Shown here one piece after another: positions 15,231-25,626 of a stretch of 51,395 nucleotides of DNA. This DNA is from Allorhizocola rhizosphaerae (GTDB lineage Bacteria > Actinomycetota > Actinomycetes > Mycobacteriales > Micromonosporaceae). The DNA is taken from contig NZ_QJUG01000033.1 of assembly GCF_003426775.1 (NCBI RefSeq), positions 1 through 51,395 of the forward strand. Direction: 5' to 3'. Both the position numbers and the translations under genes were made by a program. Position 1 is the stretch's first letter. Every line of letters starts with the position of its first letter. Below the pieces are notes generated by a model. The model was given only the letters and a program-made list of their open reading frames with translations. It ran no database searches and had not been told where the DNA came from.

Positions 15231-18200
15231 ATGCGGAGAATCGCTGTACTCGCGCTCGTGCTCCCGCTGCTGGTGGTGCCCGCTTCGGCACCGGCCTTCA
15301 GCGACCCTGGCACGACGTTTATCGAAACCGACAGGCGCACCCGCCCGGTCGCGCCCGGCATCACCTTGACCTCATTCGATCGCATCGACGCGGCCGGGTG
15401 GCTGCGCGCCGACGCGCTCAGCGCTGACCTCGGCGGCGGCACGACCGTCGACTACCTCTACTCCGGCGCGGTGTCCAAACCGGAGCCGCTGTCCGGCCCG
15501 GCCACGCGGGCCGGTGCGGTCGCGGCGGTCAACGGGGACTTCTTCGACATCAACAACTCCGGCGCGGCGCAGGGCATCGGCATCCAAAATGGACAGCTGA
15601 TCCAGTCGCCGGTCAGGGGACACAACCAGGCCGTGGGCGTCACCGCGGACGGGCTGGGGCGCGTGCTTCAGGTGTACTTCGAGGGCACGGCCACACCTGC
15701 GGGGGCCGCGCCCGTGAGCCTGACGCAGTTCAACAACCTGATTGAAGCCAACGGGGTGGGCGTGTTCACGCCGCTGTGGGGGTCCTACACGCGGACCCGT
15801 GCCGTGGAAGGTGCGGCCCGGGTGCGGGAAGTGACCATTGTGGACGGCATGGTGTCCGCGGTCGCCGACGCGGCCGGGAGCGGGCCCATCCCGGCGGGCA
15901 CGACGATCCTCGTGGGCCGCGACGCGGGCGCCGATGCGCTCGCTCTTATGAATGTCGGCACGCGGGTGGATGTGGCGTACAAGCCCAAGCCCGACGGCGA
16001 GACCCAGCTGAAGGCGGCCATCGGGGGCAACGTGGTGCTCGTGCGCGACGGTGTTCCGCAAACCCATCCCGATCCGGTACCCAACCCGCGCACGGCCGTC
16101 GGCTTCTCCGCCGACGGGCGCACGATGCACCTGCTCACCGTCGACGGGCGGCAGGCCGACAGCCGGGGCGTCACGCTCACCGAGCTGGCCAAGCTCATGG
16201 CCGAGCTGGGTGCGCATCACGCGCTCAACCTCGACGGCGGCGGATCATCCACATTGCTCGCTCGCGAGCCGGGCAGCCCCGCGCTGCTCGTGGAGAACCA
16301 GCCCTCCGACGGCGGTGAGCGGTCGGTACCCAACGGCCTGGCGATCTACGCGCCACAGGGAAGCGGGCGGCTGCACGGCTTCTGGGTCGAGACCGCGATC
16401 GATCCGCTGCGGGCGCCGGGAACCGCGCCCGTGCGCGGTGGGCGGCCGGAGCGGGTGTTCCCCGGCTTGACCCGCAAGCTCACGGCGGCCGGACACGACG
16501 AGACCTACGGGCCGGCTGCCGGTCGTGCGCACTGGCGGGCCAATCCCGCCTCGCACGGGCTGGTCAACTCCGACGGGGTGTTCCGGGCGCTGTTCCCCGG
16601 GCGCACGACCGTCACCGCCTTCAACGGCAACGCAAAGGGTGAGCTCGCGCTGACCGTGCTCGGGCCGCTGGACCGGATCGAAAGCACGAGCACCAAGCTG
16701 GGCCTGGCAGGGCTCGACGCCGTGGGATCGTTCGGGGTGGTCGGGTACGACCGGGACGCCCGCTCGGCGCCGATCGAGCCTTCGGACGTCGAGCTCGACT
16801 ACGACCCGGCGCTGCTGACGGTCACGCCCGGCGCCGACGGGAAGCTGGAGGTCAAGGCGCTCAAGCCGGTCGGGGCCGGGCTCGTCACCGTCCGGGTTGG
16901 ACAGGCGAAAAGCGTTGTGGCCGTGACCATCGGGCTTGAGGATGTCGTGGTCGCCAACTTCGACAACGCCGCGCAGTGGTCGTACAGCGCGGTTCCGGCC
17001 AGCGTCGTGGGCTCAGTGGCACCGGCTGAGGGCAAGGTGGGCCAGGGCTTGAAGCTGTCGGCGAACTTCGCCCAGCACACGGTGACGCGGGCGGCGTACG
17101 CCAACCCGCCGGCGTTCATTGACGTGCCGGGGCAGCCGCAGGCGTTCACCATGTGGATCCACGGGCAGGGCAAGGGCGAATGGGCCAGCCTGCATCTGGT
17201 CGACGCGAACGGGGCCTCCCAGGTGTTGCGGGGCGGCAACGTCATGTGGACCGGGTGGCAGCAGGTGACGTTCAACGTGCCTGCCGGGATCGCGTATCCG
17301 GTGAAGATTCGCCGGTTCTACGCGCCCGAAATCAAGGCCGCGGCGCAGTATCAGAGCGAGCTCATCCTCGACGAGATCGTGGCCCGCGTGCCACCGGCGA
17401 TCGAACTGCCCGCTTCTCAGGTGCGCACGGACGAAACCGTGGTGGCGGACGGCAATGTGGACGGTGCGCCGTGGCGGTTCGCGGTCATGTCGGACGCGCA
17501 GTTCGTCGCGTCCAATCCGGACAGCGAATTGGTGCGGGCCGCACGGCGTACCCTCCAAGAAATCAAGGCACAACGGCCCGACTTCCTCATCATCAACGGC
17601 GATTTCGTCGACACAGCCTTCCCGGCAGATTTCGCCTTGGCGAAACGGATCCTCGACGAGGAGCTGGGCGGGGAGCTGCCTTACTACTACGTGCCGGGCA
17701 ACCACGAAATCATGGGTGCGCCGATCGCCAACTTCCGCGCGGTGTTCGGCGAAACGCAGCGCACGTTCGACCACGAGGGCGTGCGGTTCGTGACGCTGAA
17801 TTCGGCCGATGGCACGCTGCGCGGCGGCGGCTTCGACCAGATCGTGCGGCTGCGCCAGGCGCTGGACACGGCCGCCACGGATCCGGCGGTCCGCTCGGTG
17901 GCCGTGTTCTTCCACCACCCGCCGCGCGACCCGACCCCGATCGACGCGAGCCAGCTCGGCGACCGCAAGGAGGCGGCGCTCGTGGAGCGGTGGCTGGCCG
18001 AGTTCGAGGAGCGCAGCGGCAAGGAGGCCGTCGTCGTCAGCGCCCACGTCGGCATGTTCAACGCCGGCCGGGTCGACGGCGTGCCGTTCATCGTCAACGG
18101 CAACACCGCCAAGGCGCCCGCCACGCCGCCCGCGGAAGGCGGGTTCACCGGCTGGAGCCTTTGGGGCGTCTCGCCTTCAGGTCTGCGGGCTGAGTTCCGG

Positions 18201-18509
18201 CCGCATGTGGACGCGCTCGCGGTGAACGCGCCCCAGTCGGTCGAGTTTGGACAGTTCGAGCCGTTGAGCGCCGCCCTGACGCAGGGCCCGCGCATGGTGC
18301 CGGTGAGCCTGCCGGTGAGCGCGGACTGGTCCGGCTCGCCGGGCGTCCACATCGGACCGATGAGCGGCCTGCGGCCGTGGCACGTCGCCTGGTTCAACCC
18401 GGCGACCGGCAAACTGCTCGCGATGCGCCCGTCGGGCAGCATCACCCTCACGGTCACCGTCAACGAGGCCGCGTCTTCCGCCACGATCGCGTTGACTCCG
18501 CAGGGATAG
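15231..18509 (+). CDS. secreted phosphodiester glycosidase (NAGPA-like) fused to a calcineurin-type metallophosphatase
   Basis: A 1092-residue protein with an N-terminal signal peptide (LALVLPLLVVPASAPAFS). Residues about 95-370 are a NAGPA domain (phosphodiester alpha-GlcNAcase-like): AAVNGDFFDINNSG with Asp103, and HHALNLDGGGSSTLL with Asp335. The middle, about 380-740, is beta-rich and includes a Big-like segment and a jelly-roll-like stretch (FDNAAQWSYSA, then FTMWIHGQGKGEWASL). Residues about 750-990 are a metallophosphatase: SDAQF (Asp755), NGDFVD (Asp791), GNHE (His825), FFHHPP (His895-896) and SAHVG (His939), a complete metal-binding set. A short beta-rich tail ends the protein. It probably removes phosphodiester-linked sugars from cell-wall or teichoic polymers and then the phosphate; this is inference. 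Confidence 0.88.
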   Translation: MRRIAVLALVLPLLVVPASAPAFSDPGTTFIETDRRTRPVAPGITLTSFDRIDAAGWLRADALSADLGGGTTVDYLYSGAVSKPEPLSGPATRAGAVAAVNGDFFDINNSGAAQGIGIQNGQLIQSPVRGHNQAVGVTADGLGRVLQVYFEGTATPAGAAPVSLTQFNNLIEANGVGVFTPLWGSYTRTRAVEGAARVREVTIVDGMVSAVADAAGSGPIPAGTTILVGRDAGADALALMNVGTRVDVAYKPKPDGETQLKAAIGGNVVLVRDGVPQTHPDPVPNPRTAVGFSADGRTMHLLTVDGRQADSRGVTLTELAKLMAELGAHHALNLDGGGSSTLLAREPGSPALLVENQPSDGGERSVPNGLAIYAPQGSGRLHGFWVETAIDPLRAPGTAPVRGGRPERVFPGLTRKLTAAGHDETYGPAAGRAHWRANPASHGLVNSDGVFRALFPGRTTVTAFNGNAKGELALTVLGPLDRIESTSTKLGLAGLDAVGSFGVVGYDRDARSAPIEPSDVELDYDPALLTVTPGADGKLEVKALKPVGAGLVTVRVGQAKSVVAVTIGLEDVVVANFDNAAQWSYSAVPASVVGSVAPAEGKVGQGLKLSANFAQHTVTRAAYANPPAFIDVPGQPQAFTMWIHGQGKGEWASLHLVDANGASQVLRGGNVMWTGWQQVTFNVPAGIAYPVKIRRFYAPEIKAAAQYQSELILDEIVARVPPAIELPASQVRTDETVVADGNVDGAPWRFAVMSDAQFVASNPDSELVRAARRTLQEIKAQRPDFLIINGDFVDTAFPADFALAKRILDEELGGELPYYYVPGNHEIMGAPIANFRAVFGETQRTFDHEGVRFVTLNSADGTLRGGGFDQIVRLRQALDTAATDPAVRSVAVFFHHPPRDPTPIDASQLGDRKEAALVERWLAEFEERSGKEAVVVSAHVGMFNAGRVDGVPFIVNGNTAKAPATPPAEGGFTGWSLWGVSPSGLRAEFRPHVDALAVNAPQSVEFGQFEPLSAALTQGPRMVPVSLPVSADWSGSPGVHIGPMSGLRPWHVAWFNPATGKLLAMRPSGSITLTVTVNEAASSATIALTPQG

Positions 18510-18597: not shown

Positions 18598-20262
18598 CTA
18601 TTTGAGCAGGATCCAGGATCTGCGGTCACCGGGGTTGGACGTCAGGTAGGTGCCGCCGGACGTCGCCACCGAGATCGCACCGTCGGCCAGCACCGAGATC
18701 CGGCCGTCGCCCGGGATCTCCGGTACGATCTTGAGCACGCCGTCGAGCAGGAACGCGAACTTCTCCTGGTATGTCAGCGCGAGCCCGCCCGCCCCGATCG
18801 GCGCCCACGACCTCGGGACCAGCCCGCTGACCGCCAGCTGCTCCTGCCATGTGTCACCGACGAGGCGCAGCAGCCGGGCCCTGCCCTCCAGCCACACCTC
18901 CTGCCCGTCGGGCGAAAGCCTGAGCGACCCGGTGCGGGCATCCTTGGGCGGTATCGCGACCGACTCCCACTTCTTGCCGCCGTCAGCGCTGACCATGATG
19001 CTGGGCTCGTGGTCCGGCACGGTCCAGTCCCACAGCCAAATCCGCCCGTCCGGTCCAGTGAGGACGGACGTCCTCGGGCCGGTCAGGGGCGGTTCCGGGT
19101 ACACCGGTCCCTCGCCAACCTGCACCAGGTCAGGCTCGGCGCAGCCGGTCCGCGGCGGCTTCTCGAACCCGGACTCACCCGGGCACACCAGCTGATAGGG
19201 TCCACCCTTGGCCAGCTGCGCCTCCTTTGGCGGCTGCTTGGCTGAATATTCCCGGTAGGTCGTGCCGCGGTCCTTGGTGAGATAGAGGTTGGCACCGGAC
19301 TGGAAGGTCAGCGTCGCGCCGTCGAGCGGGATCGGCTGCAACGCGGTGGTTGGCGGCACGTCGGGCAGGTTGGCCGTGCGCCAGGTGCGCCCACCGTCGT
19401 TTGTGGACCCAAGTTGATAGGAACAATCCTTGTTGCGCGGCTCCACCTTACACAGGTCGTAGAACGCCCACCCGCGTTGCGAATCCGCGAGCAGCAACTG
19501 GGGCCGCACATTGGCATCGATACCCGAGCCCGTGCCCGGCAGCACTACATACCGCACCGTGATTGACACGTCCGGACCCGCCCAAAACAGCGGGTCGGAC
19601 GGCAGGACCGTCGCCTGCTCGGCCGGCGTGATCGCCGCCGCCACCCCGGCCGGAAGCGCGACCAACGCGACCACCAGGGCCGCGATCGACGACCGGCGCA
19701 CCGCACGGCGCCGCCGCACCCCCGTGACCGCCTGGTCGATGCCCGGCGCGCGGATCGCGGTCGTCGTCTCGGCCTGCCACTGCGGGCTCTGCTTTTCCAT
19801 GAAGTACTCGGCCAGCTGCGACCGGCCGCGGGACAACCACGACCGGACCGTGCCTTCGGCCACCCCCTGCTGCTCGGCGATCTCGTTCACTGACAGGTGG
19901 CCGAGATGGTGCAGCACGACCGCGAGCCGATGATTGGGCGGAAGGGTGGCCAGCGCGCGGCTGAGCGCCACCCGGTCCGGGCCGGGCCCCTCGATATGTT
20001 CGGGCCGTTGCTGCGCCAGGTGTCGGGCCGCGACCCGCAGGTGGCGCAGCCGGCTGGTGGCAAGATTCCACGCGACCTTGCGCACCCAGGCGTGGGCGTC
20101 CTCGTATGCGCTGACCTTGCCCCATCGGTCCAGGGCGCGGCAGAACGCCTCCTGGGTCAGGTCCTGCGCCTCGGCATGGTCTCCCAGGTATGCATAGAGC
20201 TGGGCGGCGATACGGTGGAAGTTCGCCGTGTAAAACTCGGCAAACTCCGCGGTGTCCGGCAT
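18598..20262 (-). CDS. membrane-anchored ECF sigma factor with extracytoplasmic Asp-box (propeller-like) domain
   Basis: A 554-residue fusion. Residues 1-70 are sigma region 2 (LTQEAFCRALDRWGKVSAYE, then AWVRKVAWNLATSRLRH). Residues 95-152 are region 4 (LATLPPNHRLAVVLHHLGHL, then EIAEQQGVAEGTVRSWLSRG). A basic stretch (RRRRAVRRSS) leads to one membrane segment at about 191-211. The remaining 340 residues would lie outside the cell and carry Asp-box/BNR-like turns at 286-294 (STNDGGRTW), 329-336 (TKDRGTTY) and 425-432 (SADGGKKW), suggesting a sialidase-like beta-propeller. GGAAAGGA 6 nt upstream supports the ATG at 20262 over 20280. Sigma release would need proteolysis or a conformational change; this is inference. 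Confidence 0.85.
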   Translation of the reverse strand: MPDTAEFAEFYTANFHRIAAQLYAYLGDHAEAQDLTQEAFCRALDRWGKVSAYEDAHAWVRKVAWNLATSRLRHLRVAARHLAQQRPEHIEGPGPDRVALSRALATLPPNHRLAVVLHHLGHLSVNEIAEQQGVAEGTVRSWLSRGRSQLAEYFMEKQSPQWQAETTTAIRAPGIDQAVTGVRRRRAVRRSSIAALVVALVALPAGVAAAITPAEQATVLPSDPLFWAGPDVSITVRYVVLPGTGSGIDANVRPQLLLADSQRGWAFYDLCKVEPRNKDCSYQLGSTNDGGRTWRTANLPDVPPTTALQPIPLDGATLTFQSGANLYLTKDRGTTYREYSAKQPPKEAQLAKGGPYQLVCPGESGFEKPPRTGCAEPDLVQVGEGPVYPEPPLTGPRTSVLTGPDGRIWLWDWTVPDHEPSIMVSADGGKKWESVAIPPKDARTGSLRLSPDGQEVWLEGRARLLRLVGDTWQEQLAVSGLVPRSWAPIGAGGLALTYQEKFAFLLDGVLKIVPEIPGDGRISVLADGAISVATSGGTYLTSNPGDRRSWILLK

Positions 20263-20275
20263 GCGCGTCCTTTCC

Positions 20276-20390
20276 GGCAAGGGCCTCCCCGTAACACTGC
20301 GCTCTGCTCCGCCGGCGAGGGCCGAAGCCGTTTGGCAAGGGCCTTTCCCCGTAACGCTGTGCTCTGCTCCGCCGGCGAAGGCCCAAGCCG
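20276..20390. repeat. two tandem copies of a 58-bp repeat upstream of the sigma gene
   Basis: Each copy runs GGCAAGGGCC(T)n CCCCGTAAC...GCTCTGCTCCGCCGGCG...GAAGCCG; the copies begin at 20276 and 20334 and differ at about 5-7 positions. They cover the likely promoter and leader of the sigma gene. No coding role is evident. Confidence 0.8.
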
Positions 20391-20442
20391 CCCGGCGTGA
20401 CTCTTCTTACCACGCATCAGAGGCCCGCAATGTTGCATTGAT

Positions 20443-21090
20443 TCACGAACATGTCCAGCGGATCACCGTACCGTGGCCACTGCCAGGAAGCTTTCCCTCA
20501 CCGGCGATCGTCCGGCCGTCGTCGCTCACCACCTGCGCCCCGGCGTCATCCTGATTGGCGCCCGCCGGTGAGGGCAGCGCGATCCGCTTGCCGGGCATCT
20601 GCACGAGCGGCGGGTGCAGGAACCGCGATCTCGTTGTCGAATCCTTGATCTCCACCCGCGCGTGCGCGAGCACCCAGCCGCGCGGCGTGACGCCCACTGC
20701 GAGCAGGATGTCGGGGATCTCCGCATAGTCGCCGGTGCGCAGATCCCAGCGGATCGCTTGCTGGCCTGACCCGGGAAGGTCAAGCCCCTGCGGTTGGGCG
20801 GCCGCGCCCACCACCCATGGACCGTTGATCGCGATGGCCGAGACCTTCAGGCCCTGCGGGCCCGGCAGCGCGCGCACCGCGCCGTCCGCTGTCCAAACCA
20901 GAGCGCGCGACCCACCGTCCCAGCCGACCGCGGTCCCGTCATCGGACAGGTCATAGGCGAACGCGCGGACGACACCATCGGGCCGCGGCAGTTCCCCGGA
21001 TCGCAGCACGACCGCGAGCCGGTGCTTCGGCGGCAGCTTGGCCAGCGCCTCCACGATGGCGACCCGGTCCGGCGCCACGGGATGGGATTG
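20443..21090 (-). pseudogene. remnant of a second sigma-propeller fusion gene
   Basis: PDRVAIVEALAKLPPKHRLA is the start of sigma region 4, matching GPDRVALSRALATLPPNHRL of the neighbouring sigma factor. It is joined without the rest of region 4 or any membrane segment to an outer domain with HAF-like repeats: VVRAFAYDLSDDGTAVGWDG, then VWTADGAVRALPGP, QAIRWDLRTGDY and VVSDDGRTIAGEG with VIRWTC at the end. Region 2 is absent. The open frame itself runs further upstream (to 21459), but that part is antisense to the SRPBCC gene. It lies head-to-tail behind the intact paralogue. Confidence 0.65.
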
Positions 21091-21120
21091 TTGCGCACGC
21101 GATCCGGGTATCCGACCCGC

Positions 21121-21576
21121 ATGGGGAAGATCAGGCTTGAGCTGGAGGTGCCCGCCGGACCGGAGCGCGCGTTCGAGGTGTTCACGGGCGAGCTGATGAG
21201 CTGGTGGCCGGCCGAGTACACGTGGTCGGGCCCGCGGGCGCTGGCGGAGATCGGCATGGAGTCGGGCGCGGGCGGGTTGTGCTACGAGATCGGGCCGCAC
21301 GGGTTCCGCTGCGACTGGGGCCGAGTCTTGCACTGGGATCCGGGGCGCCGGCTGGTCTTCACGTGGCAGATCGGGCCCAACCGCGAGCCCGTACCCGATC
21401 CGGCCCACGCCGGCGAGGTCGAAGTCCTGTTCAAGGATGAGCGGATCGAGTTCGAGCACCGCGGCTTCGACAAATACCAGCCCACGGGAGACGACTATCG
21501 CAAAGCGCTGGAGTCCCCCGAGGGCTGGCCGTACATTTTGGACAGTTACGTCAAGCGGCTACGGGAAGATCAGTGA
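21121..21576 (+). CDS. SRPBCC (AHSA1-like) domain protein
   Basis: A 151-residue START/SRPBCC-fold protein of the Aha1 C-domain-like type: VPAGPERAFEVFTGELMSWW at the start, WGRVLHWDPGRRLVFTWQIG in the middle, and EFEHRGFDKY and SPEGWPYILDSYVK at the end, all conserved positions of this family. These proteins form a hydrophobic cavity and are often regulators' partners or stress proteins of unknown ligand. Its frame is open upstream, but homology starts at the ATG at 21121. Its last 18 nt overlap the end of the convergent subtilase gene. Confidence 0.8.
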   Translation: MGKIRLELEVPAGPERAFEVFTGELMSWWPAEYTWSGPRALAEIGMESGAGGLCYEIGPHGFRCDWGRVLHWDPGRRLVFTWQIGPNREPVPDPAHAGEVEVLFKDERIEFEHRGFDKYQPTGDDYRKALESPEGWPYILDSYVKRLREDQ

Positions 21577-24132: not shown

Positions 24133-25626
24133 ATGCAGCCGGACCCGCTTGCGCCGTGCGCAGCATGGATTTCCCATCCGCTGAGCGTCGCGGGACTGGT
24201 CGTGTTGGTGCTCAACGACCACGTGCTGAAGGCCGCGTGGCCCGGCGTGGTGACCGGCAAGCTCAGTGACGCCGCGGGAATGCTGATGTTCCCGCCGCTG
24301 CTCGCGGTGCTCGTGGCCGTCGCGCTGCCGCGGGCTCGGGCTCGCGTGCTGGCGGTGGTGGCACTGGTCGCGACCGGTGCGGTGTTCGGGGTCGTCAAGG
24401 CGAGCGGGCGGGCGGCCGAGGTGGCTTCGCACGCCTGGTCCGTCGTGAATGGACCGTCGACTGTGCTCGCCGACCCGACCGATCTGCTCGCGCTGCCGGT
24501 GCTTGCGTTGTCTTGGCTGGCATGGCGGCGGGCCAGCGGCAGGCCCGTCACCGATGGACGGGCCCGGCTGGTGCGGGCGCTGGTGCTGGTACCCATAGGA
24601 TTGATCGCCACGGTAGCGACCACAGCTCGACCTGACCCGATAACTGTCATCTGGGTGGGCGAGGCCGAGGGCAAACCGGCCATGGGCTACACCGGCGGGA
24701 CACTCATCGGAGTGTATGTGGGCGCGAGCGACGACGGCGGCCGCACCTTCGAGACCGCGCCGCCTGGCCGGCCGCCGCGAGAGGTCATGCGCAACACACA
24801 GGCCTGCGCGGGGAGCCGCTGCTATCGGGTCGTGCCAGGCGAGCTGCACGTGCAGGAAAGCCACGACGCCGGGCGGAGCTGGACCACGGCGTGGCAGATC
24901 AGCGGCTGGCAATACCGCGCGCTGGCGGTCGACCACGAAGACGTCAGCGACCCGGCAACCGAGCTGTCGTCGCAGTCCGTCGCGGTCCTTGGCACGGAGA
25001 GCGATCACATGGTGCTGGTGGCGAACGGGCGCGATGGCGTGCTTCGCCGCGACAGCTCGGGCAAGTGGGAGCGGGTCGGCGTCGAGGGACACAGCCTCCC
25101 ACCGTTGCGCGCGGTACCGGACTTCACCGGCCATCGCGTGATGGTCGGGTTGTTGGGTTTGCTCGCTGTCGCGTGCGCGGGGTTGGTCGTGTTGGCGTAC
25201 TTGGCGTGGCGGTCTCTCCCCCGGGCACGGGTTCGGGCGTTCCTTTTCCTCGCCCCGGTAACGGTTGTGCTCGACATGTGCTGGCTCTTCCCGCAGCGGG
25301 CGCCGGTTGGGCTCTGGTGGATCTGGGGCGTGGCAAATGGGGTGGCACTGTTCGCGTGTGCGACCGTTGCCGTGTCGTTGTATCGGCTCGGCAAGGTGCG
25401 TGCGCTCGTGACGCTGGTGGTGCTGGCCGGTGTGACGGCGTGGGTCGCGCAGGCCAACTTCAGTCTCGAACCGGCCGGGTCGCTGGACCTCTATCCGTTG
25501 CGCACCGGTGCGGGATTGTTCGAGACGGCACAGATAATCGGCTCGTTGCTACCTGTCGCGCTGGGCATTGCGGCGGCGGCGGTGGCCGCATCGCTGCTGG
25601 GGCACATCGGCGCGGAAGAACCGTAG
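24133..25626 (+). CDS. polytopic membrane protein with Asp-box-containing outer domain
   Basis: A 497-residue protein. Residues about 12-170 contain four or five hydrophobic segments with the conserved-looking stretch NDHVLKAAWPGVVTGKLSDA. Residues about 175-330 form a soluble domain with two Asp-box-like turns (SDDGGRTFE and ESHDAGRSWT) and a Cys pair (CAGSRC). The C-terminal third has four to five more hydrophobic segments. I recall the first motif from uncharacterised bacterial membrane proteins; no function is known to me. It diverges from the subtilase gene with 123 bp between starts, so the two may share control. Confidence 0.75.
   Translation: MQPDPLAPCAAWISHPLSVAGLVVLVLNDHVLKAAWPGVVTGKLSDAAGMLMFPPLLAVLVAVALPRARARVLAVVALVATGAVFGVVKASGRAAEVASHAWSVVNGPSTVLADPTDLLALPVLALSWLAWRRASGRPVTDGRARLVRALVLVPIGLIATVATTARPDPITVIWVGEAEGKPAMGYTGGTLIGVYVGASDDGGRTFETAPPGRPPREVMRNTQACAGSRCYRVVPGELHVQESHDAGRSWTTAWQISGWQYRALAVDHEDVSDPATELSSQSVAVLGTESDHMVLVANGRDGVLRRDSSGKWERVGVEGHSLPPLRAVPDFTGHRVMVGLLGLLAVACAGLVVLAYLAWRSLPRARVRAFLFLAPVTVVLDMCWLFPQRAPVGLWWIWGVANGVALFACATVAVSLYRLGKVRALVTLVVLAGVTAWVAQANFSLEPAGSLDLYPLRTGAGLFETAQIIGSLLPVALGIAAAAVAASLLGHIGAEEP

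Follow-up and report, generated by a model that had tools for sequence, protein, structure and literature searches.

A SigE-type ECF sigma factor and a predicted beta-propeller in one membrane-spanning chain: an apparent fused sigma/membrane-partner operon in Micromonosporaceae

Architecture of the fused chain

The gene at 18598..20262 (minus strand, 554 aa, stop codon included) encodes an ECF sigma factor, one membrane helix and an outer domain in a single chain and looks like a fused sigma/membrane-partner operon. Since relatives carry both halves as adjacent genes, a receptor and a gene switch appear to have been fused into one chain. Here and below, the window denotes the whole stretch of DNA analysed, i.e., 51,395 nucleotides of Allorhizocola rhizosphaerae that form an entire contig of the draft genome (8.81 Mb, 493 contigs).

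The frame runs from an ATG at 20262 to a TAG at 18598-18600 without internal stop, and the third-position GC content is 0.82-0.95 across all five segments of the chain. On the plus strand, stops are present over the same interval. The sigma part covers about residues 5-153 (19804..20250, minus strand) according to Pfam and NCBIfam. The Pfam models Sigma70_r2 (residues 11-75, 37.5 bits vs. a cut-off of 24) and Sigma70_r4_2 (residues 98-150, 53 bits vs. 25.7) both match, no Pfam model for sigma region 3 is listed for the fused chain, and the NCBIfam model sigma70-ECF TIGR02937 scores 73.6 against a cut-off of 42.9. That is, the window protein is an ECF sigma factor with sigma-70 regions 2 and 4 only. 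Its best NCBIfam family is the SigE-family TIGR02983, with 128.7 bits under the cut-off of 141.55; two split relatives likewise stay under this cut-off (136.3 and 138.7).

Behind the sigma part follow a juxtamembrane tail (residues 156-192, 19687..19797, minus strand), delimited by alignment with partner proteins, and a single membrane helix (residues 193-213, 19624..19686, minus strand). The hydropathy profile peaks only once (Kyte-Doolittle mean 2.61, starting at residue 193), directly behind VRRRRAVRR, i.e., six arginines in nine residues. In the topology that we infer, the tail is cytoplasmic and the propeller lies outside. The initial annotation had placed sigma regions 2 and 4, one membrane helix and an outer domain in one frame, which Pfam, hydropathy and the intact 554-aa frame bear out.

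When residues 1-230 were modelled with AlphaFold2, both sigma regions came out with high confidence (block means of 86-98 for residues 1-80 and 92-96 for residues 101-150, with 66 in between). For residues 161-190 the block means drop to 51-64, confidence is low beyond as well, and the pTM is 0.40. A docked tail is therefore unsupported by this model.

The outer domain

Residues 240-554 (18601..19545, minus strand) form the outer domain. The initial annotation had named structure prediction as the test for a propeller. Modelled with AlphaFold2 together with 18 relatives, residues 225-554 are nearly all beta (27 strands, one helix; pLDDT 87.5, pTM 0.85), and the predicted domain is a beta-propeller that matches solved propellers. 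The model suggests seven four-stranded blades. Foldseek reports 398 solved chains at E values up to 0.001, the best being YCF48 (1.8e-8); the best 50 of the 398 include GH74 xyloglucanases, the BT4673 sensor ectodomain, sialidases and sortilin. The TM-scores by query are modest (0.28-0.58). A second aligner places prolyl-oligopeptidase propellers on top (5t88_A: Z 14.1, 273 residues, rmsd 4.1 Å).

The three Asp-box-like turns noticed earlier were recovered with the strict pattern [ST]xDxGxx[WFY], which yields exactly three Asp-boxes, namely TNDGGRTW (residues 287-294, 19381..19404), TKDRGTTY (residues 329-336, 19255..19278) and SADGGKKW (residues 425-432, 18967..18990), all on the minus strand. 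Among 20,000 shuffles of residues 215-554 none contained three such boxes (mean 0.029). Cysteines are found at positions 271, 280, 360 and 374 of the outer domain, and the first three are invariant or nearly so in 19 aligned rows.

An FRIP-type arginine motif together with Asp-boxes is the mark of GH33-type sialidases. A FRIP-like motif ([FYV]R[IVL]P) is absent from the whole chain, the Pfam matches of the outer part, BNR included, are below cut-off, and a split partner scores 25 bits against the cut-off of 175 of an NCBIfam glycosylhydrolase model. The CU044_5270 model gave no match to the outer domain of the window among the rows shown. Thus, the earlier description of the outer domain as sialidase-like holds with regard to the Asp-boxes only; against it stand the lacking FRIP-like motif, the BNR score and the fold matches, which also comprise YCF48, GH74 and prolyl-oligopeptidase propellers. 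A glycan or wall polymer is a possible ligand of the predicted propeller.

Fused and split relatives

We searched the whole protein against 200 genomes of the same family, i.e., Micromonosporaceae, 192 of which gave a match. Rhizocola hellebori NBRC 109834 encodes the same fused chain (46% identical over residues 3-554), which is the other full-length chain among the matches listed. The fusion is thus no assembly artefact of the kind the initial annotation had considered, though most of the sigma homologues examined stop at about residue 160, with the partner encoded by a gene of its own behind them. In twelve loci (L032-L043) the sigma gene is 64-74% identical to that of the window and its end is overlapped by the partner gene; the respective values for the outer domains are 28.6-37.4% over 318-435 columns.

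The outer domain was searched separately in 300 genomes of the family, of which 55 matched, with 61 places listed. Three of these places are fused, 21 are split behind a sigma gene and 37 are without a sigma gene upstream, i.e., the same strand showed none over the roughly 1.2-1.3 kb examined before the outer domain. All of the latter are weaker matches (E of 2.7e-15 and above). The best 20 of the 61 (E up to 1e-20) consist of 2 fused and 18 split cases, and all 18 lie directly behind a sigma gene in a different frame. A frame difference of 0 never occurs in the 21 split matches. When 396 genomes from the phylum were searched at an E value of 1e-5, only the own genome of the window gave a match, and we therefore keep our claim to Micromonosporaceae.

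Many sigma matches cross an in-frame TGA, which had suggested programmed stop-codon readthrough towards the membrane half. This idea was dropped, because most partner genes overlap in another frame. In-frame partner neighbours do occur (L058, L062-L065, L069, L074 and, weakly, L009), each with its own start codon. The tails of 204 sigma reading frames (overlapping loci counted repeatedly) are either 4-82 aa or at least 192 aa long, with none in between.

In the sigma tree, the fused chains of the window, of Rhizocola and of contig C123 from the own genome group together in a single clade (99/96) with split forms around it; the window/Rhizocola pair has short sigma branches (0.095 and 0.13).

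The initial annotation had also stated that no anti-sigma gene lies beside the sigma factor. This holds for the part of the locus that we examined. In the relatives, the C-terminal half is a separate gene behind the sigma gene, so a candidate regulator would have been fused in, not lost. That is, the candidate anti-sigma partner is the C-terminal half of the fused chain itself. Adjacency and fusion link the partner and its tail, as a putative anti-sigma factor, to the sigma part.

Tail and membrane segment

Split partners begin with a tail of about 40 residues, which leads into a membrane helix and then an outer domain. The second half of the window tail aligns with the N-terminal tail of these separate partners (PG...VRRRR). 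By eye, the first part of the partner tail is missing in fused chains of both types (see below for the second type) and the basic stretch is kept. Neither Pfam nor NCBIfam recognised a known anti-sigma domain. Residues 150-225 contain no cysteine or histidine, and a zinc anti-sigma motif is therefore absent.

We considered the motif F..[FYL] as a sigma-binding motif. It is present in the tails of 42/47 split partners aligned and in none of the four fused tails shown in the same alignment (by eye). We dropped this candidate, since it was found in 0/15 split partners of the second sigma/Asp-box type. For the same 47 partners, and counted without a control set, a proline is located in or just behind the membrane segment in 42 cases and a loose [AVGST]xA near it in 33 cases. 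These counts omit the fused loci L031, L060, L061 and L009 as well as pairs in which the gap was not between -65 and +20 bases.

The upstream element

A promoter-like element GCAAC-N16-GCGTG is located at 20411..20436 (minus strand), i.e., 174 bases before the start codon. The generalised pattern GCARC-N16-RCGTG occurs in 22/22 upstream regions (window plus 21 named loci) and in 0/21 control stretches taken 900-1200 bases upstream. These 22 regions are from related species and thus not independent. Among the spacings from 11 to 22 that we tried, matches appear at 16 only, except for 2 at 22. Other SigE-type sigma loci (among L080-L159) carry the pattern in 41/56 cases vs. 0/56 controls, mostly as GCAACC...GCGTG.

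An earlier pattern (GCARC, 15-17 bases, GCGT followed by G, C or A) had matched 16/22 and 40/76 regions compared to shuffle means of 0.44 and 1.1, respectively. Its six misses carry ACGTG, and the final pattern was set after viewing them. Taken by itself, the pattern is not rare in the window (2 matches vs. 1.33 expected), such that position and conservation carry the weight. An element of this kind before an ECF gene is usually read as autoregulation, and the window gene probably has an autoregulated ECF promoter, judging from position and conservation.

A screen of the own genome with TGCARCA-N15-GCGTG gave 9 matches vs. 5 for the reversed control, and thus no regulon emerges. Apart from the match of the window itself, a single TGCAGCATTG-type match (G000:C452:8572-8598, L273) drew attention; it stands before a frame that looks MltG-like by eye; it is within chance numbers. 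Between the element and the start codon of the fused gene, the GC-rich core GCTCTGCTCCGCCGGCGA is present in two direct copies at 20301 and 20361, i.e., 60 bases apart.

Paralogues and a second sigma/Asp-box type

In the own genome, a sigma match was found in 48 distinct reading frames, one of which is the fragment of a decayed neighbour. Five are clear chains of sigma part, helix and outer domain, namely the window gene (L001) as well as L002 (C123), L009 (C6), L011 (C491) and L017 (C455). Eight chains had been flagged as fused with a helix; L278, L287 and L290 were removed by eye for their weak hydrophobic peaks, and their tails are what we take to be SnoaL-like or TPR extensions of the ECF41/ECF42 type. 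Left uncounted were L008, which looks frameshifted, and L007, which ends at a contig edge. A sigma factor and an outer domain in one chain are no one-off, since the same genome has at least four other such chains.

The outer domains of these chains differ. L002, which belongs to the clade of the window and has its sigma type, bears another outer domain that is CU044_5270-like (81.3 bits vs. a cut-off of 100). The outer domain of L011 gives a BNR/Asp-box match below cut-off (20.6 vs. 27), and that of L017 a PD40 match above it (23.5 vs. 20.9). Two further observations concern single paralogues. The sigma part of L017 (415-2226 of C455) scores 181.3 bits for the SigE family, i.e., above cut-off, and the chain shows by eye an extra C-terminal hydrophobic stretch. 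L008 (1489-2523 of C35) is a sigma gene whose tail runs out of frame past the basic stretch, like a frameshifted fused chain.

A second fused sigma/Asp-box type is represented by L011 (1486-2841) and L222-L235. Its search covered 300 genomes, 51 of them with matches, and 30 loci were examined among the matches listed. These comprise 14 fused and 15 split loci plus 1 for which no sigma gene was found over the same upstream distance and strand as above. The 14 strongest matches are the fused ones; the split ones align with part of the outer domain only. L011 falls outside the clade of the window in the sigma tree, on a long, unsure branch, and at least two fusions are therefore likely. Their independence is suggested by the sigma identity of 35-38% between the window type and the L011 type together with the split relatives that each type has of its own.

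Comparison with known systems

Transmembrane ECF chains are known from the groups ECF48, ECF52 and ECF53, for which release by proteolysis has been proposed according to PMC8999054; the same proposal is reported for SCO4117 of Streptomyces coelicolor, a member of ECF52 (PMC5826349). As described there, ECF52 (SCO4117), ECF53 and ECF48 share with the window protein an actinobacterial ECF sigma factor whose chain continues into a C-terminal membrane segment, and ECF52 also an outer domain. In contrast to the window protein, which has no Cys or His in residues 150-225, the three groups are described as having a zinc finger ahead of the helix; for ECF52, a proline-rich stretch and a carbohydrate-binding module are given in place of a propeller. 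Some ECF52/ECF53 members are said to bear glycosyl hydrolase or carbohydrate-binding domains (PMC10766802). What differs from these three groups is the lack of a zinc motif, the propeller and the occurrence as fused and split pairs.

Three further groups were compared by their description. IutY of Pseudomonas putida (ECF243) is, like the window protein, a sigma factor fused to a membrane regulator, and its release by proteolysis has been shown (PMC8999054). It differs in that it belongs to iron-starvation cell-surface signalling of a Gram-negative species. For ECF57, WD40-like repeats are mentioned in the extension of some members (PMC8999054); there, however, the model member is from Singulisphaera and control by protein interaction is proposed. 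ECF123, a group of the 2021 classification, is given with regulatory extensions in a table of PMC8999054. A group for the window sigma factor may exist in that classification. No description of such a propeller chain was found in the titles and abstract openings that we compared from the literature on ECF and anti-sigma factors.

Among regulators of other kinds, the BT4673 hybrid two-component sensor is similar in being a transmembrane regulator of one chain with a propeller as its outer domain (Foldseek E 1.1e-7, TM-score by query 0.50), but it is of two-component type, from Bacteroides, and without a sigma factor. In the RsgI/SigI system of Firmicutes, a sigma factor is under the control of a membrane protein that spans the membrane once and has its sensing part outside, by way of regulated proteolysis. 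The same likeness applies to RsiV/SigV, also of Firmicutes, where signal peptidase is reported to cleave lysozyme-bound RsiV (PMC6066255). Unlike the window protein, both systems consist of separate proteins, with other domains.

Proposed mechanism and alternatives

On balance, we consider it probable that the window protein is a transmembrane sigma factor from a fused operon, in which an outer signal leads to proteolytic release of the sigma part and to autoregulation. A SigE-type ECF sigma gene and a downstream gene for a single-pass membrane partner would have merged. The split partner is probably a non-zinc anti-sigma receptor whose tail holds the sigma factor at the membrane, a task that the covalent link would take over in the fused form. 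Once the propeller binds (or loses) its ligand, the chain may become open to an outer protease and then to an intramembrane protease. The freed sigma part would join RNA polymerase and direct it to its targets, its own gene possibly among them via GCARC-N16-RCGTG. Proteolytic release is our best guess from precedent; for the window protein we found neither a protease site nor a ligand or target gene.

It is unlikely, in our view, that the C-terminal half is only an anchor or a co-located secreted protein, constitutively cut by signal peptidase, with a propeller that senses nothing for the sigma factor and a sigma factor that is controlled at transcription. The membrane segments often show a proline and small residues near the outer end, as in cleavable signal peptides, the promoter-like element is compatible with plain transcriptional control, and for SigE of Streptomyces control at transcription by CseBC is described (PMC8999054). 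Yet all of the best 20 of 61 matches have the outer domain either in one chain with a sigma factor or encoded immediately after it, which is beyond chance co-location, and a second, distant sigma type is likewise fused to an Asp-box domain. The fused chain might also be active uncleaved, i.e., a ligand alters its conformation or clustering and the tethered sigma part recruits RNA polymerase at the membrane, which we deem quite unlikely. Membrane-bound transcription activators of the ToxR/CadC type exist, and the tail, where an anti-sigma helix could reside, is shorter after fusion. On the other hand, IutY, the one fused ECF described as experimentally characterised, needs proteolysis (PMC8999054), and nothing in the present data favours a tethered active form.

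That the outer domain is primarily an enzyme of sialidase or xyloglucanase type, with a secondary link to the sigma factor, appears very improbable: the Asp-boxes and the structural matches to GH74 and sialidases would fit, but the FRIP-like motif is missing and the scores for the outer part as well as for the split partner's glycosylhydrolase match remain below their cut-offs. We give hardly any credence to the reading that the fusion arose recently by accident and has no function, or that it results from faulty assembly. In its favour are the draft state of the genome (493 contigs), the decayed relative next to the gene and the mostly split homologues; against this, the same chain is found in Rhizocola hellebori at 46% identity, frame and third-position GC are intact, the promoter element is kept and the two sigma branches are short.

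Beyond proteolytic release of the window's own sigma factor, we tentatively suggest, with somewhat less than even confidence, that Micromonosporaceae possess a class of transmembrane sigma switches that is modular in build. Such switches would combine a SigE-type sigma factor with an interchangeable receptor (propeller or other), either split or in one chain, and would have arisen by repeated fusion and receptor swapping. The receptor could represent an undescribed anti-sigma class with a short basic tail without zinc motif, the first part of which is dispensable on fusion. Fused and split forms together suggest membrane-protein/sigma pairings for a group of SigE-type sigma factors for which no regulator is recognised. 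As one protein with a predicted receptor and a candidate target promoter, the fused chain is a simple system for tests, also of whether a covalent link is able to stand in for an anti-sigma domain.

Genomic neighbourhood

Directly upstream of the fused gene lies a decayed neighbour (20443..21459, minus strand) composed of a sigma fragment (21001-21105, 54% identical) and the end of another outer domain. This outer-domain tail has matches behind sigma genes in 9/12 other loci examined; 13 of its 15 matched loci were examined and two gave no match. One of the nine split pairs found with it is in frame (L256). From these matches, we read the neighbour as a putative second unit of the same general kind and not as part of the working gene. 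Besides the fused gene, no gene neighbours are common to the window and a 16-kb stretch of Rhizocola.

Two genes on the plus strand are mentioned for completeness. The first, at 15231-18509, is convergent with the fused gene and encodes a 1092-aa protein with phosphodiester glycosidase (NAGPA) and metallophosphatase domains. The second, at 24133-25626, encodes a protein with hydrophobic stretches (by eye), one Asp-box-like turn and a Pfam BNR match of 15.2 bits, i.e., below cut-off.
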